NCBI GenBank assembly: GCA_011037195.1
Contig: JAAEAF010002610.1
Span: 1-64,000 of the forward strand
Source: Triatoma infestans
Taxonomy: Eukaryota > Arthropoda > Insecta > Hemiptera > Reduviidae
Reading direction: 5' to 3'
Length of the DNA: 64,000 nucleotides
Made by a program: the position numbers and the translations under genes. The notes beneath the pieces were generated by a model that was not told where the DNA came from, searched no databases, and saw nothing but the letters and a program-made list of their open reading frames with translations. Numbering within the stretch: position 1 is the stretch's first letter; each line of letters opens with the position of its first letter. Below are positions 2,459 to 63,136 of this stretch, one piece after another.

Positions 2459-2667
2459 TCAGACAGTGTGACAACACAGATTTGCACAGAACAAAGTTAG
2501 TTTACACACTCCAGAGTCTGAAAAGTCTGTGTTGTCACACTGTCTGATAAACGCATCCTGAAGATGGGCGAACTCCCGAAACCGGTCGATGACCACAAAA
2601 TGAAGCAGGCTACCACGGAAAATATCTTTGATGCTTTCCAGCTCTGTGGAACCAACCACCACAACTA
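2459..2667 (+). mobile_element. HH element copy 1 (hammerhead-like, part fold-back)
   Basis: The segment lies inside family K sequence. It opens with CAGACAGTGTGACAACACAG and has the inverse, CTGTGTTGTCACACTGTCTG, at 2526-2545, so the left part can fold back. The right part carries the shared HH core and a tail ending GGAACCAACCACCACAAC. The open frame across it is not thought to be a gene, because the same sequence recurs in damaged form elsewhere. Confidence 0.6.
2553..2592 (+). ncRNA. Hammerhead-ribozyme-like motif (HH copy 1)
   Basis: In order: GCATC, CTGAAGA (2558-2564), a GGG/CCC hairpin (2566-2577), GAAA, CCGGTC and GATG. CATC and GATG can pair as stem I. ACCGGT is self-complementary and could give a very short stem III, with GUC as the cleavage triplet. 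One extra U lies between CTGAAGA and stem II, and the fourth stem II pair is broken by a T. The order follows the known hammerhead core; activity is inference. Confidence 0.45.
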
Positions 2668-2676
2668 CCACTTTAC

Positions 2677-3421
2677 AAGATTTTGGTTTTACTTTTTTGC
2701 AATTTTCTCAAAAAAGGCTCAGACGATTTTCTTCAAACTTGGTATATTAACTGCATATACAAAGAGCTACAACTTTTATTTGAAACATTTCTCCGGGAAA
2801 ATTCATTTAAGGGCACTTTGTGGGGAGAGGTAGGGTCAGGTTTTCATCTAAAATTCTATTTCAGTTTATTAGACAATTGTGTCATCAAATAATATCAATT
2901 ACAATTAAATATGTTGTTGAAATTCCGAGTTTGAAAAAAATCAGATGACCGGAAGTAGTGAGCTAAATTTTTTTTCACTTTTTCGCGATTTTCTCAAAAA
3001 TGGCTCCGACGATTTTCTTGAAACTTCATATATAAACTAATCATACAAAGTTCTACAATTTTTTATTTAAAACATTTCTCTGGGAAAATCCATTTGAGGT
3101 TACTTTTAGGGGAGGGGTGGGGGTTATGTGTTTCTCTAAAGTACTATCATAGTTGATTATACAATTCTATCATAAAAAAAAAAATTGATTAGAATAAATA
3201 TAAATATTTATTGATAATAAATGGCCTAAATTTCCAGTTTCAAGAAAATTAGTAAACCGGAAGTGCGCTTTTACTCAACATTTTTTTCAGTTTTCGAAGA
3301 ATTTCATTAAATTTGGAACATGAACTATAAAATTTATCAATTATAATTTTGAGAACTGAAGTAAGAGAAAATTGTGTGAGTGTTTCACACCAGATTTTTT
3401 TAATTAGTATTTTGGAAACAT
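2677..3421 (+). repeat. Family K copy, plus strand, two internal units and right end
   Basis: It contains two consecutive internal units. Each has AATTTTCTCAAAAA or similar, then AAACATTTCTC, a G-rich tract (GGGGAGAGGTAGGG at 2822-2835; GGGGAGGGGTGGGGG at 3109-3123) and TATTTCAGT or TATCATAGTTGATTA. Units are separated by GGAAGT motifs. It ends with GAAGTAAGAGAAAATTGTGTG and GTTTCACACCAGA, the family right terminus. The second half is the inverse of 1988-2458. Confidence 0.7.
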
Positions 3422-3570
3422 TCAGACTCTGGAGTGTGTAAACTAACTTTGCTCTGTGCAAATCTGTGTTGTCACACTGTCTGAAAAACGCATCCTGAAG
3501 ATGGGCGAACGCCCGAAACCGATCGATGACCACAAAATGAGGGCAGGCTACCACGGAAAATGTCTCTGAT
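3422..3570 (+). mobile_element. HH element copy 2, single arm
   Basis: It begins CAGACTCTGGAGTGTGTAAA, carries CTGTGTTGTCACACTGTCTG and the hammerhead-like core, and ends at TGTCTCTGAT. Only one arm of the fold-back is present. It separates a K right end (up to 3421) from an inverted K left-half fragment (from 3571). Confidence 0.6.
3490..3530 (+). ncRNA. Hammerhead-ribozyme-like motif (HH copy 2)
   Basis: CATC is followed by CTGAAGA (3495-3501), GGGC-GAAC-GCCC, GAAAC, CGATC and GATG. Stem II is a perfect 4-bp hairpin, and stem I CATC/GATG is intact. Stem III is weakened because ACCGAT replaces the self-complementary ACCGGT. The extra U after CTGAAGA is present, as in all copies. Confidence 0.45.
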
Positions 3571-3711
3571 AGTAAAGTGTACTTGCGGTTGAGGAATTTT
3601 GACGGATCCCATAGTGATTCCTAAACGGAATATCAAGTTTCGACTTTCAACGGTTTTTTATTTTTGAGCTATGCTGTTCACACATACACACACACAGACA
3701 CACACAACAGA

Positions 3712-3760
<49 letters not shown>

Positions 3761-3885: not shown

Positions 3886-3899
3886 AAACTGTTATGTGA

Positions 3900-4569
3900 A
3901 ACACACATACGACTTTCTCTTACTTAGCCATTTGCACAGTTTTCATTCATTAATTCTCTTGAAACACGGAACACTTACTAATTGTTTAGTTGTGTTCAAT
4001 CACACGAGGAAACCTTAACCATTCATTCCTCCCTCAAAACCTTCCTTAAATGAATTTCTGGGGAAAAGTGATAGGTCTCTGCGTATGTATAGTTAGTATA
4101 CCAAGTTTAATGAAACTTGTTGGTGATTTTATGGAGAAAATCGCATAAAATTTAAAAAAAAAAATTTGGTGAGTATAGTCGCACTTCCGGTCAACCCATT
4201 TTCCTTCAAACACGTAATTTTGGCAACATATTTAATTCTTGTTAATATTATATAGATGGTGATAGAATCGCATTTTAAATTAACAACTAGCACTTTATAG
4301 AAACGCATAACTTCACACTTTCCCAAACAAACCCACTTATATGAATTTTCCCGGCGAAATGTTTTAAATATAGTTTTAGCTCTTTATATGTGCAGTGGAT
4401 TATACCAAGTTTATAGAAAATCTTTGGAGTCATTATCGAGAAAATCGCAAAAAACTCAAAGACCTATCATTCAGTAAAGTCACACTTCCGGTTAACGAAT
4501 TTTCTTCAAACTTGATATATTGGCAACGTATTTGATTCTATTTAATGTTATTTAGATGACACAATTGTA
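3900..4569 (-). repeat. Family K copy, minus strand, left of the TA-flanked element
   Basis: Minus-strand K sequence with two unit boundaries (CGCACTTCCGG near 4182 and CACACTTCCGG near 4481 on the plus strand) and the K right-end CTTTCTCTTACTT at about 3911. It is cut at TA 4568-4569 by the 964-bp element and resumes at 5534 with AAATTGAAATAGCACTTTA, as in uninterrupted K copies. The element therefore inserted into K. Confidence 0.6.
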
Positions 4570-5533
4570 TGGGTGGGTCAGAATGATAGTAAATCAAGTC
4601 CCAAAGTTGACATTTTGATAAAATTGGAGTAATATATACTATTGTAATGAATATGGATAACATCGTCGATATAGGTAACTACTAGATTCTGTTGGCGTTA
4701 TATTTAACTAAGGACTTAAGGATCCTCCACACCGACGCGAAACATTCGCTGCCGCGGCAGATGCGAACTTTCCTTTGCAGAAAATTTCCTGGCGTCGCGG
4801 CAGCGGAACATGTTTGCCCACACCGACGCGGCAGCGAAACCAATATCTTTCCATATTGGATTTCCTTAGTGATTGTTTCGACATTCTACCAAAAATTATT
4901 TTAATGCATTCCAAGACCTACCTAGAGATCCACGACGTGCCATTTCCTTAGCATTTGAAACACGTGAAAAGTTCGTCAGTTGTTTTTAATAACTACATCC
5001 ACCTACTATATTTAAGTACCAGGTATATTTTCATTTCATTTATTTATATAATATAGGAAAAGTCAAAAAGTCCCAAAAATATATGTAAAAATATAATAAA
5101 CTTCCTCCCAAATCCTCTTTCTCCTAAATCTAACCCTATACTGTCCTAAATTTTGTCCTTTTTCTTACATTTTTATATTCTTCTTGGGAAAGATCATAAA
5201 TTAAAGGATAGTTTTTCACTGTTTCGATCAGCTTCTCCGTGGAAAACACCATTTTTAACAATTCCAAACCGGCGATACAATAGCGGCAGCGGAAAAACTC
5301 TGCATGCAGCGTTGGAGCGAAACGACGATGTACTACCGCGGACGTTGCGGAATTCGCATCACCCAGTGTGAATACATGCATAGACCGCCGTGTCTATTGT
5401 TCCGCTACGGTTTCGTTTCCGCCGCAGCAGCGAATGTTTCGCGTCAATATATACATGAAAACGGAGTATGAAAGACTTTTACAATTTTTTTCGTGCAAAA
5501 TGGACTTGGTCCACTATCATTCTGTCCCACTCA
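4570..5533. mobile_element. 964-bp non-autonomous inverted-repeat element, TA target site
   Basis: The ends are imperfect inverted repeats: TGGGTGGGTCAGAATGATAG at the left, and TGAGTGGGACAGAATGATAG as the inverse of the right end. TA flanks both sides (4568-4569 and 5534-5535), and the flanking K sequence joins when the element is removed. A second, inner inverted pair is GC-rich: GACGCGAAACATTCGCTGC (about 4735-4753) faces GCAGCGAATGTTTCGCGTC (about 5426-5446). No transposase frame is visible. The TA target fits the Tc1/mariner superfamily, but the family is not recognised. Confidence 0.6.
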
Positions 5534-5583: not shown

Positions 5584-5599
5584 AACACATACAAAGAGC
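5584..5599 (+). repeat. Target-site duplication, left copy (16 bp)
   Basis: AACACATACAAAGAGC occurs here and again at 5898-5913, directly bordering the HH fold-back element. The sequence is a normal internal part of family K, so it is the duplicated insertion target. Confidence 0.7.
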
Positions 5600-5640
5600 A
5601 TCAGAGACATTTTCCGTGGTAGCCTGCTTCATTTTGTGGT

Positions 5641-5680
5641 CATCGACCGGTTTCGGGCGTTCGCCCATCTTCTGGATGCG
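5641..5680 (-). ncRNA. Hammerhead-like motif, damaged (left arm of HH copy 3)
   Basis: On the minus strand: GCATC, CAGAAGA (core T changed to A), GGGCGAACGCCC, GAAAC, CGGTC, GATG. Stems I and II are intact, but the CTGANGA box has lost an essential base, so this copy should be inactive. Confidence 0.4.
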
Positions 5681-5787
5681 TTTTTTAGACAGTGTGACAA
5701 CACAGACTCGCACAGAGAAAACTTGGTTTCACACTAACTCAGTAAGTTTGCTCTGTGCGAGTCTGTGTTTCACACTGTCTAAAAAAC

Positions 5788-5827
5788 GCATCCTGAAGAT
5801 GGGCGAACGCCCGAAACCGGTCGATGA
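5788..5827 (+). ncRNA. Hammerhead-ribozyme-like motif (right arm of HH copy 3)
   Basis: GCATC, CTGAAGA (5793-5799), GGGC-GAAC-GCCC, GAAAC, CGGTC, GATG. All proposed core positions are present, with one extra U before stem II. The downstream GGTC-GAT-GACC could form a competing small hairpin. Confidence 0.5.
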
Positions 5828-5897
5828 CCACAAAATGAAGCAGGCTACCACGGAAAATGTCTCTGATGCTTTCCAGCTCTGCGGAACCAACCACCAC

Positions 5898-6035
5898 AAC
5901 ACATACAAAGAGCTACTACAGCTTTTATTTGAAACATTTATCCGGAAAAATTTATTTAAGGGCACTTTTGGGGGAGGGGTGGGGTTAGGTTTTCATCTAA
6001 GTCTAAAGTGCTATCATAGTTGATTTATTTAATTC
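5898..6035 (+). repeat. Family K fragment after HH copy 3
   Basis: It contains the second target-site copy and the K unit segment CTTTTATTTGAAACATTTAT, CATTTAAGGGCAC-like sequence, GGGGGAGGGGTGGGG and AAGTGCTATCATAGTTGAT. It stops in unrelated AT-rich DNA. Confidence 0.6.
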
Positions 6036-10440: not shown

Positions 10441-11225
10441 AGTAGGAATAGCTCTTAGCTATCTGCTAAGAATTGTAGATAAGAAGTTTGTTAGTAAGTG
10501 TTAGATTAGATCGTTTGTCAAGTAATCGTATTTTGTAACGTTGAAGTAGTGCCTGTCGTTTGAGTCTGGTATGTGGATTCCAGGTGAGGCGTCGGTCCAA
10601 GTATAGTCCTAAGTAGCGAACTTTTTGTACTGAGGGTAAGGCGACATTGTCATAATAAACTGGAGCAGAAGTGAGTCGTCTGAGAGTGAAGGAAATGGTT
10701 TGGCTCTTTTCAGCACTAATTTTGATACCCCATTTGTTGAACCATTTTTGGAGTGAATTCAGGTGCGCCTATAGATTGCGAGTTGCTATTACGGGATCTT
10801 TATATGTAGCAAGAATGGCGGTATCATCAGCGAATGTGTAGAGAGTGGAGGTATGTGGCATAGTTGGATATCAGCTGTATAAATGGAGTAAAGGATGGTT
10901 CCAAGTACACTTCCTTGGGGAACACCAGCAGATATAGGAAGGAAATTGGAAAAGGATGATCTATATCTGACCCTGAAGTAGCGGTCAGTCAGGTAGGATT
11001 TTAGCACTAAGTAATAAGCTTGTGGTAGGAAACCTCTCAGCTTCCACATCAAGCCCGGATGCCAGACACGATTGAATGCTTGTGCGACATCCAAGAAGGC
11101 CGCGCAATATTTCTTCTGCTCAAGAGACGAAGAGATGACGTCTACAATACGATGGCACTGCTGAGTGGTAGAGTGTGTAGCTCTAAATCCGAATTGATGA
11201 TCCTGGAATGATGTTATGTGATTGA
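10441..11225 (-). pseudogene. Jockey-like LINE fragment: reverse transcriptase fingers, palm and thumb
   Basis: The minus strand reads QFGFRATHSTTQQCHRIVD, FLDVAQAFNRVWH (first catalytic Asp region), ISAGVPQGSVLG and, after a frameshift near 10865, the FADD region. It continues with LNSLQKWFNKWGIKISAEKS, VRYLGLYLDRRLTWNPH and LTNKLLIYNS. The order matches ORF2 of Jockey-clade LINEs. The copy is 5' truncated near 11225. The palm coding segment is repeated at 10226-10440, giving a duplicated palm. Confidence 0.8.
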
Positions 11226-11286
11226 AGAATAGGATATAAATAAAAAAAAATACAAATAAAAAAATAATAAACAGTATTTTTATGCA

Positions 11287-11580
11287 CATGTTTACTTTCT
11301 CTTACTCCTTCTATTAAGAGGAAGTTTTTGAAATCGTGTCAAATTTTCTATATCTAGTATTCACCGGATATATACGTTTTGATAAAATGATTTTTAGAAA
11401 TACGGTTTGTGTGTATGCGTGTGGTCAGTATAACCAAAAAAAAAAAACTTTTTTCCCGGAAAATGTTTCAATAGTATACAAAAATTTAAAAAGAAAATCG
11501 TTGGAGCCATTTTAGAGAAAATCACGAAAAACTGCAAAAAAAAAAAAAAAAAAAAGAAAAGTTCAGTAAAGTTGATCCGA
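11287..11580 (+). repeat. Family K remnants: left end (+) joined to an inverted unit
   Basis: 11287-11445 has the K left terminus (TACTTTCTCTTACTCC, AAGAGGAAG, ATCGTGTCAAATTTTC, CACCGGA) and a degraded GT tract. From about 11448 the sequence is minus-strand K (TTCCCGGAAAATGTTTCA, AAAATCGTTGGAGCCATTTT), followed by a long A tract. The join suggests rearranged copies. Confidence 0.55.
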
Positions 11581-12654: not shown

Positions 12655-12844
12655 CTCCGCTTAACACAATTATATCTTTTAATTTTCTTGTTAATTAATC
12701 TTCTTTCGTCTTGAATGACAACTCTATTCCACAGATAACACAGATATTATATAATTAATAGAAATTTCCCACAAATGGAAATTGGAAAATCTTACAATTG
12801 TGAGGTTAGGGTTGTTAGCAAAGGAATTTTTTTTGTCTTACTCC

Positions 12845-12995
12845 TGAGTGTTTCAGCTGAATTTGCTTTGTGCAAAGCTATGTTATCACACAACGTCCAA
12901 TGTATCCTGATGATGGGCGAACGCCCGAAACTGGTCGATGACCACAAAAAGAAGCATCTCTGATGCTTTCCAGCTTTGCGGAACCAACCACAACA
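12845..12995 (+). mobile_element. HH element copy 5, single arm
   Basis: The right arm and tail are present: TTTGCTTTGTGCAAAGC, TGTTATCACACAACG, the hammerhead-like core, then a deletion removing part of the segment between GAAGC and ATCTCTGATG. It ends GCGGAACCAACCACAAC. No left arm was found. Confidence 0.6.
12902..12940 (+). ncRNA. Hammerhead-ribozyme-like motif (HH copy 5)
   Basis: GTATC, CTGATGA (12907-12913, the canonical box), GGGC-GAAC-GCCC, GAAAC, TGGTC, GATG. Stem I pairs as TATC/GATG with one G-U wobble. TGGTC-GAT-GACCA downstream could form a 5-bp competing hairpin. The single extra U before stem II remains. Confidence 0.5.
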
Positions 12996-13059
12996 TCTAT
13001 AGAATTTTATCTTTGCAGTCAGCATTAAAGCCTATTTTATAAAATCGTTACCGTTTCCT

Positions 13060-15950: not shown

Positions 15951-16270
15951 GGCCTTGACCTTCTCAATATAAATCGCGGAAAATTGAACAAAAACGTTCA
16001 GTAAAGTCGTACTTCCGGTCAACCAAATTTTCTTCAAACTCGGAATTTTTTGGCAATATAATATTTACTCTTATAATTGTTACTCAATTAATTACTTCAA
16101 TCAATTACTTCAATATAATTTTTACTCATATTAAATAGCTGATAGAATCGTAATAATTTGAAATGGCACTTTAGAGGAAAGCCTAACATCGTTCTTTCCC
16201 AAAATCAAAGAAAATCGCAAAAAAAAAAAATACAATCTATTCAGTAAATGGTACTTCCGGTTGACTGAAT
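15951..16270 (-). repeat. Family K fragment, minus strand
   Basis: Unit boundaries CGTACTTCCGGTCAACC (about 16007-16023) and GGTACTTCCGGTTGAC (about 16250-16265) and the segment TGGCACTTTAGAGGAAAGCC are present in reverse orientation. It directly abuts the plus-strand copy from 16271, giving a head-to-head pair. Confidence 0.6.
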
Positions 16271-16333
16271 TTTCACTGGAAGTACACGTTTTGAGGTCCG
16301 ATGAGCCCAAAAAAGTGTTTTTTGGCAATTCTC

Positions 16334-16378
<45 letters not shown>

Positions 16379-16915
16379 ATGTATGTATGTATGTATGTAT
16401 GTATTTGAACACACAGCTCAAAAACGAAAAATCGTAGGAAGTTCAAACGTTTAGCTATCACCATGAGATCCGACACAGTAGGTTATCTATCAAAATTCCT
16501 CAACCAAGAAGTACCACTTTACTGAATTTTTTTTTTTTTTTTTTTTTACCTTTTTTACGATTTTCTCAAAAATGGCTCTATCGATTTTCTTGAAACTTGA
16601 TATACCAATTACACATACAAAGAGCTACAACTTTTATTTGAAACATTTCTCCGAGAAAATTCATCGAAGGATACTTTTGGGGGGACGGGTGGGGTTTCGT
16701 GTTCTCTAAAGTGCTATTTCAGTTTATTACACAATTCTATCATCTAAATAATGTGAATTAAAATTGAAAATGTTGTTGAAATTTCGAATTTGAAAAAATC
16801 GAATGACCGGAAGTGCGTTTTTACTGAAAAGTTTTTTTCAATTTTTTGCGATTTCCTCCATAAAAACACCGACGAATTGGAGTAAGAGAAAGTTGTGTGA
16901 GTGTATCACACCAGT
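16271..16915 (+). repeat. Family K copy, plus strand, with GT/GTAT microsatellite and right end
   Basis: It opens within the head (TTTTCACTGGAAGTACACG), then (GT)n at about 16337-16361 and (GTAT)n to about 16404, AACACACAGCTCAAAAACG and CTCAACCAAGAAGTACC. One full unit follows with GGGGGGACGGGTGGGG, then GACCGGAAGTGCG and the right end GGAGTAAGAGAAAGTTGTG with TATCACACCAG. Short frames across the repeats are artefacts. Confidence 0.7.
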
Positions 16916-18199
16916 TTTTTTTTTTTTTAAATAATTTGTAATTGTTTGTAAGTTATCAAGTGGACATTTATTTATATAGTTTTAATATTTTTTTGTACTT
17001 ATTGTTTTGTTAGTATATTATTCTTTACATTGATAAGCATTTTTATCCTCTTCTTTCTTGACTCTTCTATTCTACCTGCGTGAAACATATGCCATAGTGC
17101 TCCTCCGTAAGTTTTTCAAAATTTATAATCCCATCTATATGATCCTCATCGAGTACCACTTTAAGATAGTTTTCTTAATCCATCTGTCGCCCTAACTAGG
17201 GTCGCTCATTTCCATTTTCTGTACAACACAATTTGTCCAATGTCTTCTAGCCGTGGCCTTATTATTTAATCCATAATTTTTGTTTTCCCATCTTTCCTGG
17301 TATTGCTACCATCAATATTCGGCCTTTAGCTATTTTTTTACGCTTCATTATATATTTTGACGGGTAAAAATTGTGTTTCAAAATCTAACCCAAGTTCTGG
17401 AAGTAGATGGAAATACTAAAAATAATTGCTTAACCGATTGACACCTGGAAGTTGATTCAAAAATTGATAATTTTAATAATATTTAATCACTGTTTGTAAT
17501 AATTATTTATGACAAAGTATGGTTGTATAGTGCAACTTTGTTTGGGATTTTGCTAATATACCATCATCATCCAGTATATACCTAACATTAAAAGAATTAA
17601 TTGTTTAATTAGAAAACTTTGTAATTTCCTCTCCATTGGTCTCTAAAAATGTTGTTAGTGATCATTTGTGAAAGCTCGCCTTAAACAGTTTCTCTTATAT
17701 TTAATATTAGCACAGCATATCTATCACTCTATTTACAATAACTGTGTATTGCAAGCGATTTTTTTTTTTTAATCTATAATAAATGCACTCCTTTGCAGTA
17801 TATTATATTTGTTTATATAGTGGTTTGTGCTGGTATGTTATATTTAAAGGCTTGTGTTTAATAAACACGGCTGGCTAATGGCCAAGCCATTCCTCTCTAC
17901 CAACCAGCTTCTACTAAGACATTACTTTCATCGCATTACTCATCTTATATACAATAAAATATATTACTTTATTGTTCTTGTTTTCGTCTTATTATCTTTA
18001 TAGTAATGTTTTGTCTATGTTGGTTATTGTACAATTATTTGTCATTTTTCTTTTATTATTATTATTACCTTCACAATTATTATTGCTATTTTTATTTCTG
18101 TTAATGTGATTATTACCTAGAGAAAGTCATGTTCATGAATATGTACTTACTTGTCTCATTTTGGGGACGATAACTTGAATTATATTCCTATTGGCATCA
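16916..18199. other. AT-rich interval, no gene recognised
   Basis: Starts with the T tract that follows many K right ends. No coding or RNA feature was seen. Confidence 0.45.
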
Positions 18200-25057: not shown

Positions 25058-25704
25058 TGTTTAATCTCCTGACGCCTTTTTGTCTCCCAATGTATACCTT
25101 TTGCAACACATGTGTCACTTTCGGCCGTTGTCGTAATTACGATAACTTCCGATTGCACATTGTCCGGTTTCACCTCGAACCTGTTACTAGTGGTATTTCT
25201 GTTCGAAAACTGTTGTACTATACGCTCGTACACGCACGGAAGTGCTCTATATTTTCCACGGTGCTACCCGCATGTTAAGTGCATTTCGTTTTCTCTCTGT
25301 TAGTTTACCGCAAAGTATACGGGCGTGTCGTTTCTCGCCTCTTTCGTTACACCGCATTTTCACGGGTACGCAGTTTTCCGTTGCACCGCATGTTCCCCGC
25401 TTAAGTACGGTACATTATACAAAGGAACATACTTATGCCTACTTGGCCTTCAATCAGCTCGCCTTTTAGACTGGAGGACACCATCTACGTTCACAAGGTA
25501 TCTGAGGCCAGGGGGAGGGGGGAGTCGACTCTCTTTTCCTTTTGGGATCCCTTTCCTTGGGGCGCTGTTAAGCCAGTGTCCACATGCAAGGTAAGCGTTC
25601 TATTATTCATGCTTATTTGAATTAGTATTCTCTGTTTCCCCGCATTAAGAACTACACCCTATCAAATACAGTCCACTTACCGCTTTGTTTGACAAGATCA
25701 GACA
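25058..25704 (-). mobile_element. Solo LTR, copy 1 (647 bp)
   Basis: On the minus strand it starts TGTCTGATCTTGTCAAAC and ends GGAGATTAAACA, the TG...CA ends of an LTR. 5-bp direct repeats (TACTT) flank it. A homologous 664-bp copy with a different 5-bp duplication is at 57025-57688, so the ends are defined independently by two insertions. No gag or pol is present beside either copy; they most likely arose by recombination between the two LTRs. The 5-bp duplication fits Gypsy, BEL/Pao or Copia elements; the family cannot be told. Frames inside it are not considered genes. Confidence 0.85.
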
Positions 25705-25709
25705 TACTT

Positions 25710-28842: not shown

Positions 28843-28853
28843 ACTGCTTAAAG
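28843..28853 (+). repeat. 11-bp target duplication, left copy
   Basis: ACTGCTTAAAG here and at 28993-29003 flanks the single-arm HH element. Confidence 0.7.
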
Positions 28854-28992
28854 TGTGTAAACTGAATTTGCTCTGTGCAAGACTGTGTTATCACACTGTG
28901 TGACAGACGCATCCTGAATATGGGTGAACGCCCGAAACCGGTCGATGACCACAAAATGAAGCAGGCTATCACGGAAAATGTCTCTGATGCTC
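28854..28992 (+). mobile_element. HH element copy 6, single arm with target duplication
   Basis: It begins TGTGTAAACTGAATTTGCTC, contains CTGTGTTATCACACTGTGTG and the hammerhead-like core, and ends TGTCTCTGATGCTC. It is bounded by 11-bp direct repeats. No inverted arm exists, so the fold-back is not needed for insertion. Confidence 0.7.
28909..28947 (+). ncRNA. Hammerhead-like motif, core damaged (HH copy 6)
   Basis: GCATC, CTGAATA (conserved G changed to T), GGGT-GAAC-GCCC with a U-G closing pair, GAAAC, CGGTC, GATG. Stem pairing is kept although the core box is broken. Confidence 0.4.
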
Positions 28993-29004
28993 ACTGCTTA
29001 AAGG

Positions 29005-34329: not shown

Positions 34330-34448
34330 TTAATCTTTTTACTTTCTCCCACTCCTAGTAAGAGGAAGTATTGTAATCGTGTCAAATTTTCGATATTGAG
34401 TTTTCACCGGAAATATCCGTTTTGAAATGGTTTTTAGCAAATGGTCTG

Positions 34449-34488
<40 letters not shown>

Positions 34489-35325
34489 AACAGCATAGAT
34501 CAAAAACGAAAAATCGTAGAAAATTCAAATTTGATATTCCGTTTAGGTACCACCATGGGATCCGACAGAGGGTCATCTGTCAAAATTCCTCAACCGGAAG
34601 TACCACTTTACTAGTTGGGTTTTTAAGTTTTTGCGATTTTCTCAAAAATGCCTCCAAGGATTTTCTTTAAACTTGGTATATCAACTGTACATACTAACAG
34701 CTACAACTTTTATTTGAAACATTTCTCTGGGAAAATTCATTTAAGGGCACTTATGGGGGAGGGATGGAGTTAGGTTTTCATCTAAAGTGCTATTTCAGTT
34801 TAATAGACAATTCTGTCATCTAAATAATGTTAATTAAAATTAAATATGTTGTTGAAATTCCGAGTTTTAAAAAATCGGATAACCGGAAGTGCGTTTACTT
34901 TACCACTTTACTAAATGATTTTTTCACTTTTTCGCGATTTTCTCAAAAATGATTCCGACGATTTTCTTGAAACAACGTATATAAACTAAACATACAAAAA
35001 TCTATAACTTTTATTTAAAACATTTCTCTGGAAAAATTCATTTAAGGGCACTTTTAGGGGAGGGGCGGGGTTACAGCTTCCTCTAAAGTGGTATCATAGT
35101 TGATTATACAATTCTATTATCCAAATAAAATTAATTAGAAATAAATAGATGGCCTAAATTCCAAGTTTTAAGAAATTTTTAAGCCGGAAGTGCGCTTTTA
35201 CTGAACAGTTTTTTCAGTTTTCGACGAATTTCGTTATGTTTGGTACACAAACTATAACCTTTGTCAATTATAATTTTGAGTACAGGAGTAAGAGAAAGTT
35301 GTGTGAGTGTTTCACACCAGATTTT
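34330..35325 (+). repeat. Family K, most complete copy (about 1 kb)
   Basis: The left end is TACTTTCTCCCACTCC followed by TAAGAGGAAGTATTG; the right end is GGAGTAAGAGAAAGTTGTGT and GTTTCACACC. The terminal 15 bases are inverted repeats. In order: head with TTTTCGATATTGAGTTTTCA, (GT)n at about 34445-34472, GAACAGCATAGATC, ATGGGATCCGACAG and CTCAACCGGAAGTACCACTT. Two full units and a partial third follow, each opening with CCGGAAG and containing a G-rich tract (34755-34768, 35056-35071). No open frame of note, so it is non-autonomous. The superfamily is not recognised and no clear target duplication was found. Confidence 0.75.
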
Positions 35326-35329
35326 TTCT

Positions 35330-35520
35330 TCAAATGTGATTGATACTTATTAAATATATTAAATACTCTGCTCAATTATATTGTGGGATGGCGTTACGCA
35401 ATGGCACTTGAAAGGGAAGCCGGATGTCATCACTCCACTTTTTCTAAGAAAAGTAAGCTTACCAAAACAATTTTTCTTTAAAAAAAGTGATAATTATATA
35501 TTGTAAAAAAAGTTACTGAA
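35330..35520 (-). repeat. Family K fragment, minus strand
   Basis: AATGGCACTTGAAAGGGAAG and CATCACTCCACTTTTTC match the reversed segment GAACGATG..CTTTCCTCTAAAGTGCCATT seen at 16165-16200. Weakly supported boundaries. Confidence 0.4.
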
Positions 35521-41426: not shown

Positions 41427-42275
41427 TATTTTATGAGATTACTTTCTCTTATTGCTGATAAGAGGAAATATTACGCGATCTTGTCAAATTTTCGATATAG
41501 AATTTTCACCGGAAATATATGTTTTAAGGTCCCCAGAGTTCGAAAAAGTGTTTTTTTAGAAATTGGTCCATACTCATGTGTGGTCAGCATAAATCAGAAA
41601 TGGAAAATTGCAGAAATTTAAAACTTAATATTTAATTGAAGTGCTAAGTACTAGAGACCTGATAATAATATTTTGAAGAAAATCCATCAACCGGAAATAC
41701 CACTTTATTGATTAGATTTTTTAGTTTTTGTGATTTTCTTGAAGATGACTGCAACGATTTTCTTTAAACTTGGAATATTAACTACACATGATAAAGGATA
41801 CATTTCTCATTTCTCAATTTTATTTGAAACGTTTCTCCAACAAAATTCATTTAAGTAGTGCTTTTAGAGAAGAGTGGGGGTTATGCTTTCTTCTATAGGG
41901 GGGCTGTTTTAATTTATTACACAATTGTGTATTCCAAGTTTGAAGAAAATTGGACCGGAAATGAGACCTTACCGAACAGTTTTATCAGTTTTCTGCGATT
42001 TCGTTTATAAACATATCGTCTGGTCTCATTAACACGGTATATACAGACGCCTATCACTTTTGTTGGCAATTTTTTCCGAAAAAATTTATTTAAGTGGGGG
42101 TATCGGTGGAGCGGACTTATGTTTACCTCAAAGAAGTCGTTTAGTCACATTCATGCAAATTGAAGGCGGCAACTGAGCATCTAGTAAGAATTATATTTTT
42201 TTAAGAGAATTAGTCAATTATAGCTGTATAAATCGCCGTAAGAGAGAGCCGTGTGGGTGTTCACACCGTTTTTTT
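41427..42275 (+). repeat. Family K copy, full span, diverged
   Basis: Left end TTACTTTCTCTTATTGC and GATAAGAGGAAATATTACG; right end GCCGTAAGAGAGAGCCGTGT and GTTCACACC before a T tract. The head, CATCAACCGGAAATACCAC and two units are visible, with the second unit boundary GGACCGGAAATGAGACC. The GT microsatellite is reduced to TCATGTGTGGTC. No coding content. Confidence 0.65.
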
Positions 42276-42734: not shown

Positions 42735-43982
42735 TATATATTTTTACTTACTCTAACTGCTGGTCCGAGGAAGTATTGCGATCGTGCCAGATTTTCTAAA
42801 TTGAGTTTTCACCGGAAATACACGTTTGCGGTTCCCTGAGTCCAAAAAAAATGTTTTTTTGAAGGTGGTCTATGTGTGTGTGTGTGTTTATGTTTCTTTT
42901 TGTTTATATAATTAGACAACACTGTCCATCACCGGACAATGAGCTGTAGAGGCTCCTAGGAAGAAAAACTCTAAGGGCAGCACAGCTAGGCTCGAACCAG
43001 AGACATCCGCGTGGGAGTCTAGTACGCTTACCCCTTGCTACTCCTTGCTAATCCCTTCCCTTGGGTGGATGTGTGTGAAAAGAATATCTCAAAAACGAAA
43101 AGTTGCAAGAAGGTCAAACTTGGTTTTCCGTTTTCTGTATTACAGTCGCATCAGCCATGAAGATTCATCAACCGGAAGTGCCACTTTAACGAATGATTTT
43201 TTTTCAATTTTTTTATTTTCTCGAAAACGGCTCCATCGATTTTCTTTTAACTTTTCATAGTATCAACTATGCTATAGTACCAACTTTCATAGTATCAACT
43301 TTTCACAGTATCAAGCTTTTCATAATATCAACTACATAATACAAGAAGTTACAACGTTTATTTGAAAAATTTCTCCGGGAAAATTCATTTAAAGGCACTT
43401 TTGGGGGAAAGGTGGGGGTTATGGTTCCCTTCAAAGTGCTATTTCAGTTTATTACACAATTGTATCATTTAATAACATTAATTAGAATTAAATGTGTGGT
43501 CGAATTCCCGAATTTGAAGAAAATCGGATGACTGGAAGTGCTCTTTACTGAAAGTAATTTTCAGTGTTCTGCTATTTTCTTTAAAAAGTTTCCAACGATT
43601 TTCTTTAACCTTGATATACCAACTACACATACAAAGGGCTACAACTTTTATTTGAAACATTTCTCCGGGAAAATTCGTTTTTGGCTACTTTTAAGGGAGA
43701 GGTGAGGTTATGGTTTCCTCTAAAGTGCTATTTTAGTTCAACAATGTACTATACAATTCTGTCAACTAAATAATATTAATTAGAATGATATAAGTTGCCA
43801 AAATTCCCAGTTTGAAGAAAATCGGTTGTGCGGAAGTGCGACTTTACTGAATAGGTTTTTCATTGTTTGTGATTTTCTCTGTTAAAATACCGACGGTTTT
43901 AAACAATAATAAGAATTGTAAGTGTGAAGAAAATTTGCCATTTCCATAACAGAAAGTCGTGTGAATGTTTCACACCAGACTT
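42735..43982 (+). repeat. Family K copy with three units, split by a SINE
   Basis: The head (CTGGTCCGAGGAAGTATTGC, GAGTTTTCACCGGAAATACA, (GT)n at about 42871-42887) is interrupted by an inverted SINE and resumes at about 43066 with GTGTGTGAAAAGAATATCTC. Units begin at CAACCGGAAGTGCC (43168), GACTGGAAGTGC (43528) and GTGCGGAAGTGCG (43828). The right end is AGAAAGTCGTGTGAATG, TTTCACACCAGAC. A small local expansion repeats TTTCATAGTATCAACT four times at 43249-43335. Confidence 0.7.
42914..43063 (-). mobile_element. SINE family A copy 4, inverted, inside family K
   Basis: On the minus strand: GGGATTAGCAAGGAGTAGC with AAGGGGTAAGCGTACTAGAC for the head, GGTTCGAGCCTAGC for box B, then AGGAGCCTCTACAGCTC and TTGTCCGGTGATGGACAG. 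It lies in the microsatellite zone of the K copy. Confidence 0.7.
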
Positions 43983-44123: not shown

Positions 44124-44136
44124 CACCTACAGAAAG
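44124..44136 (+). repeat. 13-bp target duplication, left copy
   Basis: CACCTACAGAAAG here and at 44983-44995 precisely flanks the fold-back element. Confidence 0.8.
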
Positions 44137-44213
44137 TTTGTTGTGGTGGTTGGTTCCGCAGAGCTGGAAAGCATCAGAGACATTTTCCGTGGTAGCCTGC
44201 TTCATTTTGTGGT

Positions 44214-44252
44214 CATCGACCGGATTCGGGCGTTCGCCCATCTTCAGGATGC
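44214..44252 (-). ncRNA. Hammerhead-ribozyme-like motif (left arm of HH copy 7)
   Basis: Minus strand: GCATC, CTGAAGA, GGGCGAACGCCC, GAATC (one change from GAAAC), CGGTC, GATG. The A to T change in the GAAA box should reduce or abolish activity. Confidence 0.45.
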
Positions 44253-44903
44253 GCTTTTCAGACAGTGTGCCAACACAGACTCGTACAGAGACTTAGTTTC
44301 ACACTAACTGAGGTGTATGTTTAAAATACTAAACTCTTAAACTTGGTAAAGGGATGTGGCCAGATGGGTGGGAAGTATGTGAGTGATGATGTGACATGGT
44401 TTGTGGGGTTTGTGGGATGCATAATAAAAAACTTAATTATATAAGAAAACATAATTAGGTATACATGCTTGCGAGCATGTGAGGGTTGCGTGAAAAAGAG
44501 AAAGAATGACTGGAATTTCTTAATTCTTTGGAACTGGAAAACTTAACTTAATTATATAAAAAATCGTTCAGTTTTAAACGAATGAATGAATTTTAAAATG
44601 TTAGTTTAATCGTTGTTATTTAGATTTATTTTGTGTATCTTATTTTTATTTTTTGTATATTCTTAATATTTTGGTTAGTTAATTGTAAAGTAAGTCTCCC
44701 TCCAACAACAGAGTTTAAACATTAGACCCCCGCGTCCACTGTAAGAAAAGAATTTGCCCTTTAACAACCCAAACACGTGTTTTCCCACCCATCTGGCCAC
44801 ATCCCTTTACCTAGTTTAAGAGTTTAGTATTTTAAACATACACCTCAGTTAGTGTGAAACTAAGTCTCTGTACGAGTCTGTGTTGGCACACTGTCTGAAA
44901 AGC

Positions 44904-44944
44904 GTATCCTGAAGATGGGCAAACGCCCGAAACCGGTCGATGAC
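44904..44944 (+). ncRNA. Hammerhead-ribozyme-like motif (right arm of HH copy 7)
   Basis: GTATC, CTGAAGA (44909-44915), GGGC-AAAC-GCCC, GAAAC, CGGTC, GATG. Core boxes are intact; stem I has one G-U pair. The stem II loop differs from the left arm, so the two arms are no longer identical. Confidence 0.5.
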
Positions 44945-44995
44945 CACAAAATGAAGCAGGCTTCCACGGAAAATGTCTCTGACACCTACAGAAAG

Positions 44996-50504: not shown

Positions 50505-52395
50505 AAAAAATCTGGTGAGAAATACACACACAACTTTTTCTTACAATGGCAATTTACCATAGTTTACAAAATTTTTATTTAACGGTTAGGTGTCTTTTAA
50601 CCTTTTTTTTGAGGGGGCATATCCTTCTAGCTCATTGGAGGACCTCTTCTAAAATCGATTTTGTCAAAAAAAAAGATTCAAAGAAAAGTGATAGGTCCAC
50701 TGTATGTATGGTTAGTTATACCCAGTTTAATGGAACCCGTTAGTGTCTTTGTAGAGAAAGTCGCAAAAAACAAAACTGAAATAAGTATTCACTTCCGATG
50801 AACCGATTTTCTTCAAACAAGGAAATATGGCATCATATTTAACATTAATTAATATTATAAAGATAATAGAATTGTATGATAAACTAAAATGGCATTTAGA
50901 GGTAAACATAACTCCACCCTTTCCCCAAAACCTCTCTTAAATGAATTTTTCCAGAAAAATAATGTCAAATAAATGTCACAGATATATATGTATGTATTGT
51001 AGATTATATACATACATTATATGTAAATTTAAAGAAAATTGTGGGAGCTATTTTCGAAAAAAATCGCAAAAATTGAAAAAAATCCATTGTGTTATTACCG
51101 GTTTACAGATTTTGATTATAACCTTATTTTAGGGTCTGCGGACAACACTTAAAACTAAGGTCAGTTGCACACACAACGATTTCGATCGTACGGTAAAAAA
51201 AATTTAGTGGCACGAAAGAGATCATGGGAGCTTGCGCACGTTACGATCTCCACACGGTACGGCACGATTGCCATGTTGCTGCCGTCTACTGCCACTACAA
51301 CATACGGTTGCCGTGCCGTGAATACATGGCCTACATAATCATATGCATGCTTGCAGACACCACGATTTTTATTCCTACGGTACCTGTCATAAGTTAACGT
51401 CGGCTTCTGTGCCCACTGATTATTTATCGGTTCTTTGCTAAAATAGTTCTTTAATTTGTGACGTTTATATAGTGTACTATTAACTATTTTAGTGTTATAA
51501 CTTTATATGTTAAGTAATAAGTGTATTGATGTACCCGACTTCTGACACCAATTGTCGTATCTCTATCCTATACTACTAGCTTACTCTACTACAAAATAAC
51601 CAGAGAGAGGGACAGCTTAGGAACACCATATATTCTCTATCTCAAGATATACAATATAACCCTTGGTATCAGTAACAAATACAAAACACAACTCTACTGT
51701 CTTTTATTTTATTTTATTCTTTCTTCTTCAAATTCTTTATCTTCCTCTTGGTCTTCGTCTTCATCAGTTTCTTCAACTGCTCAATTTCTTCATCGTTATT
51801 ATTCCACTTCTTCAGTGACATGTCCCATTTCTTCCAATTTATCTTTTAAAGATTCTTCACTTCACCCAATAACTCTTGTTCTCCAGTTACTTCTAATTTT
51901 ATCGTATCTTCTTCTTCAGATTCTTTATCTTTTTCCTCTTGGCCTTCATCTTCCCAATTTGTTATCATCACCACTGTCTTCTTCACAAAATGTGTAGAAT
52001 GTTCCTGCTTGTTCCCCTTCTCTGGTTAACTGGATGAACCCAGTGAACACTGTTAAGCCAGTTGAGCCTAAGAGACGGTACCGCATAGGCACAACACGTT
52101 TAGGATTTATTACTAAAGAATGAATGAAATATTCTATAGGGAAAAATATCGTAATGAGGGCAAGGAACGTTTTCACGATAAATACCGTACGATATTTTTT
52201 TTACCATACGATCGAAATTGTTGTGTGTGCAACTGGCCTAAGTATCTGATTTGAATTTTCTGCAATTTTATACCTTATACTAACCCTAGCACTAGTGTAC
52301 ATCTAGACTTATATTTCTGGAGAAAACTCGATATCGAATATTTGCCACCATTGCATTATGTACTCTTATAAGCAGTAAGAGAACGTAAATATTAC
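50505..52395 (-). repeat. Family K copy split by a Harbinger-type element
   Basis: In reverse, the right end (AATCTGGTGAGAAATACACA, CAACTTTTTCTTACAATGG) is at about 50510-50550. Units are bounded at ATTCACTTCCGATGAACC (50791) and ATTACCGGTTTACAG (51095). After the inserted element the head resumes at 52241 and finishes with AAAACTCGATATCGAATATT and CTCTTATAAGCAGTAAGAGA at about 52370-52392. Confidence 0.6.
51159..52238. mobile_element. Harbinger/PIF-type element, 1080 bp, TAA target site
   Basis: Left end GGTCAGTTGCACACACAACG then ATTTCGATCGTACGGTA; the right end is the inverse with three changes (GGCCAGTTGCACACACAACA then ATTTCGATCGTATGGTA). TAA flanks both ends (51156-51158, 52239-52241), and the host K copy joins when it is removed. 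A 3-bp TAA target is the mark of PIF/Harbinger elements. No DDE transposase is recognised. On the minus strand 51720-52176 encodes an acidic, Glu/Asp-rich stretch (FCEEDSGDDN and below) that may be a remnant of an accessory protein. Confidence 0.8.
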
Positions 52396-56357: not shown

Positions 56358-56518
56358 TGTGGTTGGGTCCGCACTTGCAGTGTAAAAACTAAATTTACTT
56401 TGTGTAAGTCTATGTTATCACACTGTTTTGAAAAAACATCCTGATGATGGGTGAACGCCTGAAACTGGTCGATGACCACCAAAAGAAGCAGGCTATCACG
56501 AAAAATATCTCTGATGAT
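56358..56518 (+). mobile_element. HH element copy 8, left arm largely deleted
   Basis: The left tail CTGTTGTGGTTGGGTCCGCA is present, then the sequence jumps to the inner arm (AACTAAATTTACTTTGTGTA, TGTTATCACACTG) and the core, ending AATATCTCTGATGATCAAAT. The left arm is therefore deleted between the tail and the loop. Confidence 0.65.
56436..56474 (+). ncRNA. Hammerhead-ribozyme-like motif (HH copy 8)
   Basis: ACATC, CTGATGA (56441-56447), GGGT-GAAC-GCCT, GAAAC, TGGTC, GATG. Stem II has changed at both outer positions (G-U and U-G), yet still pairs, which hints at constraint or chance. Stem I CATC/GATG is perfect. Confidence 0.5.
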
Positions 56519-57019: not shown

Positions 57020-57024
57020 GTTCA
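57020..57024 (+). repeat. 5-bp target duplication (GTTCA), left copy
   Basis: GTTCA is repeated at 57689-57693, exactly at the other end of the solo LTR. Confidence 0.85.
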
Positions 57025-57688
57025 TGTCTGATCTTGTCAAACAAAGCGGTAAGTGGACTGATTTGATAGGGTGTAGTTCTTAATGCGGGGAAACAGAGAA
57101 TACTAATTCAAATCAATATGAATAATAGAACGCTTACTTTGTAAGATGTGGACACTGGCTTAACAACGCTCCAAGGAAAGGGATCCCAAAAGGAAAAGAG
57201 AGTCGACTCCCCCACTCCCCCCTGGCCCCAGATACTTTTGTGAACGTAGATGGTGTCCTCCAGTCTAAAAGGCGAACAGATTGAAGGCCAAATAGGCATA
57301 AGTAGATTCCTTTGTATGATGTACTGTACTTAAGCGGAGAACATGCGGTGTAACGAGAATAACGGAAAACTGCGTACCCATGAAAATGCGGTGTAACGAA
57401 AGAGGCGAGAAACGACACGCTCGTATACTTTGCGGTAAACTAACAGAGAGAAAACGAAATGCACTTAATATGCGAGGTAGCACGGTGGAAAGTAGAGAGC
57501 ACTTCCGTGCGTGTACTAGCGTATGGTACAACAGTTTTCGAACAGAACTACTACAGTACTAACAGATTCGAGGTGAAACCGGACAATGTGCAATCGGAAG
57601 TTATCGTAATTACGACAACGGCCGACAGTGATATATGTGTTGCAAAAGGTATACATTGGGAGACAAAAAGGCGTCAGGAGATTAAACA
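57025..57688 (+). mobile_element. Solo LTR, copy 2 (664 bp)
   Basis: Starts TGTCTGATCTTGTCAAAC and ends GGAGATTAAACA; homologous end to end with 25058-25704 (minus). The flanking 5-bp repeat differs from that of copy 1, so each is an independent insertion. Inside, GCGGTGTAACGA occurs twice (about 57346 and 57388). There is no clear TATA box. Small insertions and many substitutions separate the copies. Confidence 0.85.
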
Positions 57689-60099: not shown

Positions 60100-60735
60100 T
60101 ATTTCCCCCTGCCAAACCGGTAGGTACCTAGGTTTCTTAATCTTCTTTAGATGATAGCATCGCAGTCTTAAAGGAGGTCACTTCTATCCCTCCACAGAAT
60201 CTGTAGGTCCTCCATGCCTTCTATGCCCAGCTACTATGGTGCTCAGAGTCTACAATGCCCTGTAAGGGAGCCCGTCATAGGGGCATGAAGTTTGTTTTTG
60301 TGCAGGCCGCAGATCTTTTCTGGTCGTAACTGCCCAAAAAAATCTTTACTTGGATCATTCGTGGGAGGTTTCTCCAGAGCAATGCATCCTCCATGTTTCT
60401 GAACTCTGCCTAAGAAAGGTTGGTCGCTTATCCACAAAAGAAACCAGGCCCAATGAATGTAACCTCCCTTGCACCTTTCCTTGCCAGGGATCGGCCATCT
60501 CATTTCCTTCTGGGCCAACATTCCCAGGCACCCAGAATAGACAACTTCATCAATCATTTGCCCAGGTCATTGAATTTGCGAAGCATTCTCACATTTTCGA
60601 TCTGATGACACAGAACTCAGTGCTTTAATGGCGGCCTGGCTATCAGATAGGATCACAGTTATCTGATTCTGCTATTTCCTAAGTGACACATTTTCCAATT
60701 GTGTGAATTTCTGCCTGGAAGATGCTCTTGAAACG
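60100..60735 (-). pseudogene. LINE RNase H domain and C-terminal remnant
   Basis: Minus-strand pieces in order across frames: ITVILSDSQAAIKALSSVSS (RNase H with the catalytic Asp), FWVPGNVGPEGNEMAD, LARKGAREVTFIGPGFFCG, and near the end LTGHCRL and a decayed EEE-type Cys tail. This is the canonical order of the RNase H domain of I/LOA/R1-type LINEs. At least three frameshifts and several stops make it non-functional. The upstream reverse transcriptase is not recognised up to 60870. Confidence 0.75.
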
Positions 60736-61289
60736 CACCTGTAATAGATTCCAGGTGTTTGATCCTTAGTTCTTTCCCCATTCTTACGCGTAATGAAATT
60801 ATTGATATTTTTAAGGGAACTTTTTACCGCATTGATTGCTGTGACGGTTTTTTTTTTTTTTAAATGAATCACTAAACTATTCTCTAAAGTTGGTCACTAT
60901 CTGAGATTCTTATTAAAAAGAGATCAGCTCTAATTAGTAATAAAGTTAATTAAAAATAAGAAATTGCATTATTTGTAAGGAGATTAAACGGAAATTGGCG
61001 GTAAGACACGCTTGTGAAAGTTTACATTCCCTTGTCTCACTTATATGTCAGAATTCTCCCACAGAGTCACACATTAACAGTCCTATTTTCACATTCTATT
61101 TTCAAACCAAACCCATCTCCTTTAGCATATTTTATTTCTTTTTCCATTGCAAATACAAGGTATATATATATCTAACTTTAAAGCAGTAAAGGGTCATCAA
61201 CCTTTTGCTTGGAAAAAAAAACTGTAGTTCTAAAAAAGAGTGATTATTTCCCCCTTGCATAGAATTCATTTTTATATTTAACAAGTCTA
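60736..61289. other. AT-rich interval, no gene recognised
   Basis: A T tract lies at 60849-60861. 60700-60760 may extend the LINE fragment (EIHTIGKCVT-type sequence). Nothing else was recognised. Confidence 0.4.
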
Positions 61290-61800
61290 TGGAATTTATT
61301 TTATTTTTTCTGCTATAAGGAAATATAGCGATCGTATCAGATGTGTTCTCACTGAAAATATATGAAAATACATGTTTTTAATTGGTCTGTGCATTCTATG
61401 TATGTGAGTGTTTTTAGAATATCTGTTCAATGAAAAATTACAGGAAGTACAACGTCGATATTTCGTTTTATGCACCGTCATCGGGATTCCTCACAAATGG
61501 TCCGATCAAAATTTATGAACTGGTAGTACGCCTTTACAATATTACTTTGGATATCGAAATTCACCGGATATACGCGTCTTGAGTAATCCAGAAAGTGGGT
61601 TTGGGGAAGAAGTGGTGGTCCGAAAAGTGGTGGTAATTGGTGTGTACGTGTTGTGTGTGTGTGTGTGTATGGATCAGCATAACTCAAAAAGTCAAAACAG
61701 CAGAAAGTTCAGACTTGATATTTAGTTTAAATGCTCAAAATGGGATCCGACAATAAGGTCCAAAATCGGTCAGCCGGAAGTAAATTACTTCGATTTTTTT
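61290..61800 (+). repeat. Two family K heads in tandem
   Basis: A first head (CTGCTATAAGGAAATATAGC, CGATCGTATCAGAT) runs to about 61530. A second head starts TTACTTTGGATATCG with CACCGGATATACGCG, then (GT)n at about 61651-61669, ATGGATCAGCATAACTC and GGTCAGCCGGAAGTAAATTA. The right parts are missing. Confidence 0.55.
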
Positions 61801-62689
61801 TTTTTTTATACTGATCAGATTAAAAGTCTTGGAAGTGGATCGACATTTTCTTTTCAAATATCCTATAATCAAAGAACATAATTTATATTGTGCCAGGGTT
61901 GCAATCTGATAAACTATGCCCAGTAGCGGACATTATACTACAGTATTAAATCAATAATGTTTCTCTGTCGACCCATATAATAAATAATAATAATAATATA
62001 TTTAGCTGAGACATGCAGTTAAAAGATTGGTATCATAAAGTGAACAGACTTTCCAGTTACCATGTTGTGCCAAAAATGAAAAAATTATTGTTTTTTTTTT
62101 TTTTTTTTTTTCTTTCTATTTTCTTCTTCTTCTTGATATCTACATTTTCTACTATATTTGTTTGGACAAAATAAAAAAGATAGGATATTTTTTTTTTAAC
62201 AAAAGAAGTATGAAAAGAAGTTGCTGACGTTTGCAAAAAAAAAAAAAACCTGTTATCTTTTTTAGAAGTGATGTGGTGTTGCAGTTTATCATGAACTTAA
62301 AACTATTTATTTATAGCTGTGAAGCAAGATGATGGTCAAGTTATGTCTCTATTGCCTCTGTCTGTCTCTCTTTCAGTGTAATCATGCGCATTGATTATAT
62401 TGTTCAGTTATTAATGCAGTAGAATTGTTTATTGCTGCTAAACTGCAACAATAGTAATGCTGCAACATTGTTGGAAATATTGCTGAGCAGAATATAATAA
62501 ATTATTATATAGGGAAACTGTAATTTACCTTGTCCATACTAGAGAAGCACCTTAGGAGAAAGTCAGTCGTATGGATGATTCATATCAGATTTCTAGTTCC
62601 TCTTTACCGCTTGTTATAGGACACATTGTTTACACTGCCTTTGTTTTCTGTTATTACTTTATATTTGGTTTATCTTTTCTTTATATTTT
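61801..62689. other. AT-rich interval, no gene recognised
   Basis: A short (AAT)n run at 61981-61999 and a long T tract at 62091-62111 are present. No gene recognised. Confidence 0.45.
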
Positions 62690-62944
62690 CCCTCATCTGG
62701 TGGTGATAAGAGGAAGTTTAGTGATTATATCAATTTTACTAAATTGTGTTTTCATCAGCAATATATGTTTTGAAAATGGATATCCAGATTAAGAAAGAAA
62801 AAAAACATTTTTAACGAATATACTTTATGTGAAACAAATATCTCAAAAGTGTTACAATATAGAAAGCTCAAACTTGATATTTTACAATAACACGAAAGTT
62901 TCGGTTAAAAACCACCAACCGGAAGTGCGACTTCAGTGAAATGA

Positions 62945-63136
62945 TTTTTGTTGTTGTTGTTGTTGGTTCTGCAGAGCTGGAAAGCGGTTAGAGAGATTTT
63001 CCGTGATAGCCTGCTTTTTTTGGCGGTCATCGACCAGTTTCGAGCGTTGACACAAATATCCTGATGATGGGCGAACGCCCGAAACCCGGTTGATGGCCAC
63101 CAAAAAGAAGCAGGCTATCACGAAAAATATCACTGA
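62945..63136 (+). mobile_element. HH element copy 9, short fold-back
   Basis: The left tail is a GTT repeat then GGTTCTGCAGAGCTGGAAAG; the left arm runs through GATTTTCCGTGATAGCCTGC to GTTTCGAGCG. The right arm goes back from the core to GCAGGCTATCACGAAAAATA with CACTGAT. The inner loop is almost deleted, leaving arms of about 85 bp next to each other. Confidence 0.7.
63056..63096 (+). ncRNA. Hammerhead-ribozyme-like motif (HH copy 9)
   Basis: ATATC, CTGATGA (63061-63067), GGGC-GAAC-GCCC, GAAAC, CCGGTT, GATGG. Stem II is perfect. An extra C lengthens the ACCGGT element to ACCCGGT, and the cleavage triplet would be GUU instead of GUC. Confidence 0.45.

Follow-up and report, generated by a model that had tools for sequence, protein, structure and literature searches.

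A very abundant, probable Penelope-like element of Triatoma infestans with a hammerhead motif at its start codon: suggested use of two templates per insertion and a hint of self-cutting

Results and Discussion

The window analyzed here is a 64-kb stretch of the genome of Triatoma infestans (GenBank assembly GCA_011037195.1, contig JAAEAF010002610.1, positions 1 to 64,000), and it carries eleven copies of one dispersed repeat, eight on the forward strand and three on the reverse strand. These scattered repeats are very probably insertions of a highly abundant Penelope-like element (PLE) in which a small motif of hammerhead type overlaps the start codon of the gene. The assignment follows from the anatomy, which is specific, and from the matching start of the open reading frame (ORF). 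A preliminary description of this DNA had rightly pointed to PLEs as a comparison, which is borne out by inverted pseudo-long terminal repeats (pLTRs), a tail, target duplications and a hammerhead at the ORF start; its separate "HH element" family has to be abandoned, as the motif lies at the junction of pLTR and ORF start of an apparent PLE. The hammerheads of PLEs are themselves already known. The present copies add the suggestion of two templates per insertion and a hint of self-cutting. How PLEs insert and what their hammerheads do are open questions, and some ten thousand exact core matches in one genome are a natural record of the insertion reaction, showing which RNA ends were copied.

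Anatomy and genome-wide sample

A hidden Markov model built from the eleven copies finds all of them again (E ≤ 2.2e-34); the remaining matches are weaker or partial, with E values of 2.5e-12 or poorer. The core motif CTGAWGA occurs 36 times in the window, compared with a mean of 14.85 and a maximum of 23 in 100 shuffles. The recurrence of core sites on both strands, reported earlier for at least nine places, is therefore real.

A full arm of the element is a pLTR that runs from ~60 nt (about 62–68) before the start codon to ORF base 68 or 102. Its 3′ end has two fixed positions, ~34 nt apart: a short one after TCTCTGA (ORF base 68) and a long one, giving the arm its "tail", after GGAACCAACCACCACAAC (ORF base 102). 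The ORF of an intact copy would be expected to begin with MGERPKPVDDHKMKQATTENVSDAFQLCGTNHHN. In the whole genome (941 Mb), the 34-mer of the core has 9,988 exact places (5036 + 4952), and a 35-mer just 3′ of the predicted cut has 9,291 (4683 + 4608); both reversed controls gave 0.

The first sample comprised 95 of the 100 first-listed 34-mer places, in 90 stretches (30 + 60 loci), and the second 30 loci and 20 stretches from the 35-mer list. The counts from these two samples carry the bias of this choice, as the loci are the first places listed and were seeded on exact 34- or 35-mers. Counts of pairs and tails include the window copies and omit loci L254, L258 and L272, which duplicate neighboring loci; L288 and L290 share similar flanks and are perhaps one duplicated insertion. 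Among 143 placed copies, the tail is present in 69, one of which scores at the borderline, and absent from 72; two are unreadable. The scores of the 141 readable copies are bimodal: 69 lie at 26 or above, 72 at 16 or below, and a single score falls between 16 and 36.

Neighboring copies less than 1 kb apart form 49 pairs, of which 43 are head to head (−+), three ++, two +− and one −−. Exactly one tail is present in each of the 41 head-to-head pairs that are readable at both ends, on the right arm in 22 and on the left arm in 19, never on both or on neither. One long end and one short end is thus a simple rule that any model of PLE insertion has to explain. When a mismatch of 10% and as much as 10 nt of slack are allowed, 37 of the 43 pairs are flanked by target duplications 8 bp or longer; by identical criteria, such duplications turn up in 49 of 1806 combinations of mismatched flanks. 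Most of the duplications measure 10–14 bp. Many of the duplications look AT-rich by eye.

Head-to-head arms with target site duplications would also be produced by a foldback DNA transposon or a miniature inverted-repeat transposable element, moved by a transposase. Such an origin is scarcely credible, as the outer ends differ in all the readable pairs, the arms vary in inner length and, for some pairs, in subfamily, a single arm in the window has a duplication of its own (28854–28992), and the ends lie within the ORF. The minimal type I hammerhead, the short units and the lack of a visible ORF body would suit a retrozyme. Retrozymes are non-autonomous elements of tandem repeats, in which hammerheads process multimeric transcripts into circular RNA; those of animals carry ribozymes of this type (PMC7229834). 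A retrozyme is highly improbable too: close neighbors are arranged head to head and not in tandem, the insertions bear target duplications and end inside the ORF at two fixed points, and none of the copies seen forms a unit with a cut site at either end.

Two putative start points and a proposed model of insertion

The arms of one pair often differ in inner length. Moreover, as judged by eye, arms of different subfamilies occur within one insertion, most clearly at L250 and, at a few positions, at L312, L318 and L333. The mean identity is 0.91 within pairs and 0.887 between pairs, and an arm's own partner is its best match in only 5 of 43 cases; later mutation blurs this comparison. It is more likely that an insertion draws on two RNA templates, one copied at each nick, because fold-back of one complementary DNA would have given arms that were identical at first. 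A fold-back copy was rejected on the orientation of the arms, their unequal ends and the mixed subfamilies.

The model proposed here starts from the anatomy, the duplications, the copy number and, within the sample, the end rule as observed; the enzyme, the order of events and the cleavage are inferred. The enzyme of the element would make a staggered cut in the target. On each strand, reverse transcription would then begin inside the ORF of an RNA, at one of two fixed points: the near start point on one strand and the far one on the other. On a single-copy messenger RNA, it would run off the 5′ end of the RNA, leaving two head-to-head arms and a flanking target duplication. The predicted hammerhead cut falls upstream of both start points, nearer to the 5′ end of the RNA, so that cleavage would shorten the template; most copies would come from uncut RNA and a few, apparently, from cut RNA.

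The hammerhead motif and its fold

The majority sequence of the motif is CATC-CTGAAG-ATG-GGC-GAAC-GCCC-GAAA-CCGGTC-GATG, which reads as a minimal type I hammerhead spanning the putative ORF start. In this reading, stem I (CATC/GATG) encloses CUGANGA, an extra U, stem II (GGGC/GCCC), GAAA and stem III (ACCGGU), with the cut after GGUC, that is, after ORF base 24. The order of these parts had been given correctly in the preliminary description, and so had the self-complementary nature of stem III. The extra U, said there to occur in every copy, is present in 10 of the 10 copies that can be aligned. This puzzling base is, as read from the letters, the U of the start codon AUG, because the ORF begins at stem II, as in PAc, the Poseidon PLE of Anolis carolinensis; the A and the U of the AUG would correspond to hammerhead A9 and the extra base.

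A strict descriptor (stem I of at least 4, one optional extra base, stem II of at least 4, GAAA, stem III of at least 2, and UH) is satisfied by 5 of the 11 window copies and by none in 60 dinucleotide shuffles of the window. The other six copies are broken, each in a different manner (Table 1). With 10 of the 11 copies aligned, 97.3% of the cells pair, compared with 19–42% when the partners are slid. The stem II changes in the copies at 28914 and 56441 do retain pairing through G–U, as first described, but they are one-sided and hence do not amount to covariation. A count over the 143 copies, made for stems I and II only, yielded one two-sided change among 25 gapless non-seed copies (window included): the second pair of stem II in L290, G–C to A–U.

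The calculated energy of a double-hammerhead dimer is −27.3 kcal/mol, compared with 2 × −11.9 for two monomers. Lunse, Weinberg and Breaker reportedly described, in 2017, small PLE hammerhead variants cleaving as dimers; judged by the title alone, these would likewise be minimal PLE hammerheads, acting as dimers. The cut site of the present motif lies inside a perfect GGUC/GACC hairpin, ORF bases 21–31 of the arm, GGTCGATGACC. This hairpin could be a switch that a protein or dimer formation would open.

Truncated arms and cleavage

Whether the ribozyme is active in living germ cells could be read from a genomic record of this kind, without any RNA: with the cut placed between the start points and the 5′ end of the transcript, an arm copied from a cut template is expected to start at ORF base 25. 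Most of the placed arms (122 of 163) reach −40 or beyond, and these derive from uncut RNA. Eighteen truncated arms begin within ORF +9 to +45, and four of them (at L363, L379, L380 and L388) do so exactly at +25 (binomial probability about 0.001); five more begin at +26 to +30. Sampling is even over +9 to +33, and arms starting beyond +33 are under-sampled, the second seed beginning at +34. Over +9 to +33 only, starts at +25 account for 4 of 15 arms (0.002) and starts at +25 to +30 for 9 of 15 (0.003); when each insertion contributes a single arm, 4 of 13 begin at +25 (0.001). Two arms, L356 and L335, were dropped from the 18 as internal deletions, the (+) arm of L380 was assigned its start at +25 by manual re-reading, and L331, with a start at about +21, is outside the 18. 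At L380 and L388, both arms of the pair lie at or near the cut. Altogether, these starts are suggestive of cleavage of the hammerhead RNA in vivo, not proof of it.

Several results weigh against an active hammerhead in a PLE. Few arms enter the cut-site count, and part of it was checked by hand. No pair is changed on both sides in the 10 aligned window copies, so the covariation proposed earlier as a check was not seen in the window. At E ≤ 1, no hammerhead in the window is recognized by Rfam, and none in 5740–5905 at E ≤ 10. Whole-arm folds hardly beat shuffled sequences (z from −1.38 to −0.05 for four arms and one RNA). In the monomer, stems I and II together reach −8.5 kcal/mol, compared with −11.9 for the best fold, and a competing fold with the GGUC/GACC hairpin (−11.4) conceals the cut site; similarly, a dimer fold of −31.2 kcal/mol outranks the double hammerhead. 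The hammerhead of PAc is inactive without protein and cuts only with the protein of the element; insertion persisted in its mutants, and RNA-seq gave no ends at the cut site (PMC11167929).

Furthermore, no PLE protein could be tied to the arms. A Pfam search of seven window ORFs gave one RVT_1 fragment at 10792–11301 (−), with an E value of 1.5e-13, and no pair of reverse transcriptase and GIY-YIG domains; the six other ORFs had no match. By its motifs, we take the fragment for a non-LTR remnant. Among the ORFs of at least 170 aa in the sampled loci, a Pfam search of three gave a single weak RVT_1 match, under the cut-off, and no GIY-YIG, and the rest were judged by eye. Much of the stretch at L364 consists of N, possibly an assembly gap.

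Two explanations without cleavage have to be weighed. The starts near +25 might reflect pausing of the reverse transcriptase at RNA structure, an explanation that deserves serious, if minority, weight. The five further starts at +26 to +30 speak for it, as do the position of the 3′ strand of stem I (+25 to +28) and the small number of arms; a stop before stem I would, by reasoning, peak at +29/+30 and not at +25, and the two loci with both arms at or near the cut also argue against pausing. The motif as a whole might, moreover, be a relic, merely coding sequence and start context preserved by the youth of the copies, with no cleavage of RNA. This is a real possibility, though less likely than not. 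It would agree with the lack of covariation in the window, the six broken copies, the competing folds and the silence of Rfam; on the other hand, the majority sequence retains every hammerhead position, as it does for PLEs generally according to a review (PMC6155905), 4 of the 18 truncated arms begin exactly at the cut site, and 77 complete hammerheads in viral contigs have the extra U as well.

Extra-U hammerheads in viral contigs

An exact search with the core of the element in viral contigs gave no match. A scan for a hammerhead core with the extra U, in contrast, gave 115 loci. Complete hammerheads, defined by a stem III of at least 3 bp, a UH cut triplet and a stem I of at least 5 bp, are present in 77 of the 92 distinct contexts (for example, L097, L099, L101, L103 and L105), compared with a mean of 0.34 and a maximum of 2 when the flanks were shuffled (200 rounds). 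Among the matches listed, 2 of 5 contexts with A or C as the extra base qualify, and 80 of 110 without any extra base; in an any-base scan, 82 of the 120 stretches listed were already in the U scan. A G at this position is ambiguous with a longer stem II. In 106 of 123 viral sites, the reading frame opened by the ATG is no longer than 60 codons, so the extra U is mostly not that of a start codon.

The extra U thus seems compatible with a hammerhead, and the extra-U form appears to be a recurrent variant. At E ≤ 1, Rfam reported none of the extra-U sites in eight viral loci, and the viral hammerheads are possibly a subclass absent from the models. No description of the variant was found in the text, figures aside, of the accessible part of PMC3088659 or in the hammerhead literature surveyed.

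The fullest account of the element would unite three things: two RNA templates with obligatorily different starts, hammerhead cutting in the germ line with cut RNAs serving as templates, and the U of the AUG as the mark of a true hammerhead subclass, common in phage-like contigs and missed by Rfam. As a whole, this account is put forward tentatively, and we would not yet wager on it.

Features of the window

The coordinates of Table 1 rest on nhmmer, self-BLAST and reading of the sequence.

Table 1. Arms of the Penelope-like element in the 64-kb window and the features that accompany them.
Feature	Position	Strand	Remarks
pLTR arm with tail	2458..2665	+	core CTGAAGA 2558; start codon A 2564; predicted cut 2587/2588; stem II mismatch
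Short inverted stretch of pLTR repeat	2456–2546		accompanies arm 2458..2665
pLTR arm without tail	3404..3570	+	core 3495; stem III broken
Target site duplication ACATACAAAGAGC of pair 5600–5900	5587–5599 (left copy), 5901–5913 (right copy)		
pLTR arm without tail	5600..5735	−	left half of head-to-head pair; core 5651–5674, CTGA changed to CAGA (5674)
pLTR arm with tail	5743..5900	+	right half of pair with 5600..5735; core 5793; start codon A 5799; predicted cut 5822/5823
Single pLTR arm with tail	12840..12999	+	core 12907; no clear target duplication seen
Target duplication ACTGCTTAAAG of single arm 28854..28992	28843–28853 and 28993–29003		
Single pLTR arm without tail	28854..28992	+	core 28914; G8 mutated (CTGAATA)
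Target site duplication CACCTACAGAAAG of pair 44140–44982	44124–44136 (left copy), 44983–44995 (right copy)		
pLTR arm with tail	44140..44374	−	left half of pair; core 44247, GAAT
pLTR arm without tail	44782..44982	+	right half of pair with 44140..44374; core 44909
Single pLTR arm without tail	56376..56516	+	core 56441; no clear target duplication seen
pLTR arm with tail	62950..63048	−	5′-truncated within hammerhead; arm begins near ORF +8; core lost at arm junction, 63045
pLTR arm without tail	63057..63137	+	head-to-head partner of 62950..63048; core 63061

A clear target duplication is present in two of the three head-to-head pairs of the window; none was seen for the pair at 62950–63137. 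The arm at 3404..3570 may be the second arm of the 2458 insertion, separated from the first by an inversion. The flank TACCACTTTAC at 2666–2676 has an inverted, imperfect counterpart, GTAAAGTG, at 3572–3579, and a similar sequence, unoccupied, stands at the start of the repeat at 34601.

The window also holds another dispersed family, with an internal unit of ~300 bp that is in tandem in places (34336–35330). Its relatives lie at 1966–2456, 2663–3400, 4063–4571, 16267–16924, 41439–41937, 43157–43900 and 50671–51082. This family adjoins PLE arms several times and may be a favored target or captured sequence. Two inverted copies of a 650-base repeat (25058–25705 and 57024–57688) are 92% identical and, by self-BLAST, have no overlap with the PLE arms.

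Comparison with known systems

According to a review, hammerhead motifs are present in every PLE sequence available, for the most part in a minimal form (PMC6155905). Animal retrozymes are non-autonomous retroelements with type I hammerheads (PMC7229834); the present motif is of the same type, but the tandem arrangement of retrozymes was not seen here.

In PAc, the ORF begins at stem II of the hammerhead and is cut after 26 nt. An AC-rich stem loop, 111–118 nt from the ORF start, is where reverse transcription begins, and the tail corresponds to the interval that separates two start points (PMC11167929). The present arms are similar in many respects: the ORF start lies at stem II, the predicted cut 24 nt into the ORF, and the presumed internal start of reverse transcription in an AC-rich stretch ~100 nt into the ORF, with two starts that define a tail of 30–40 bp. 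Both strands are cleaved and extended in PAc (PMC11167929) and, as inferred from the arms, presumably here as well. PAc has a characterized protein; for the present arms, none was found among the ORFs searched.

The Penelope families of the rotifer Adineta vaga have inverted pLTRs, a 31-bp tail on one of them, the first ORF codons in the pLTR and a target site duplication of 8–10 bp (PMC3846280). Head-to-head inverted pLTRs, a tail on one arm, an ORF start inside the pLTR and a target site duplication are common to these families and the present element, and so are sequences captured between pLTRs and solo pLTRs. The duplications are mostly longer here (10–14 bp, compared with 8–10 bp). In the rotifer, the tail is called optional and the copies are few, whereas exactly one tail was found here in 41 of 41 readable pairs, in a genome with about ten thousand core matches (PMC3846280).

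In the PLE literature surveyed, no rule of one tail per insertion was found. Different start points at the two nicks in every readable pair would be a sharper statement than the "optional tail" of that literature. PAc showed no difference between the strands in the start of reverse transcription in vitro (PMC11167929), in contrast to the one of each in all 41 readable pairs here. Because of this, the one-long-one-short rule may depend on the whole reaction or on a dimer.

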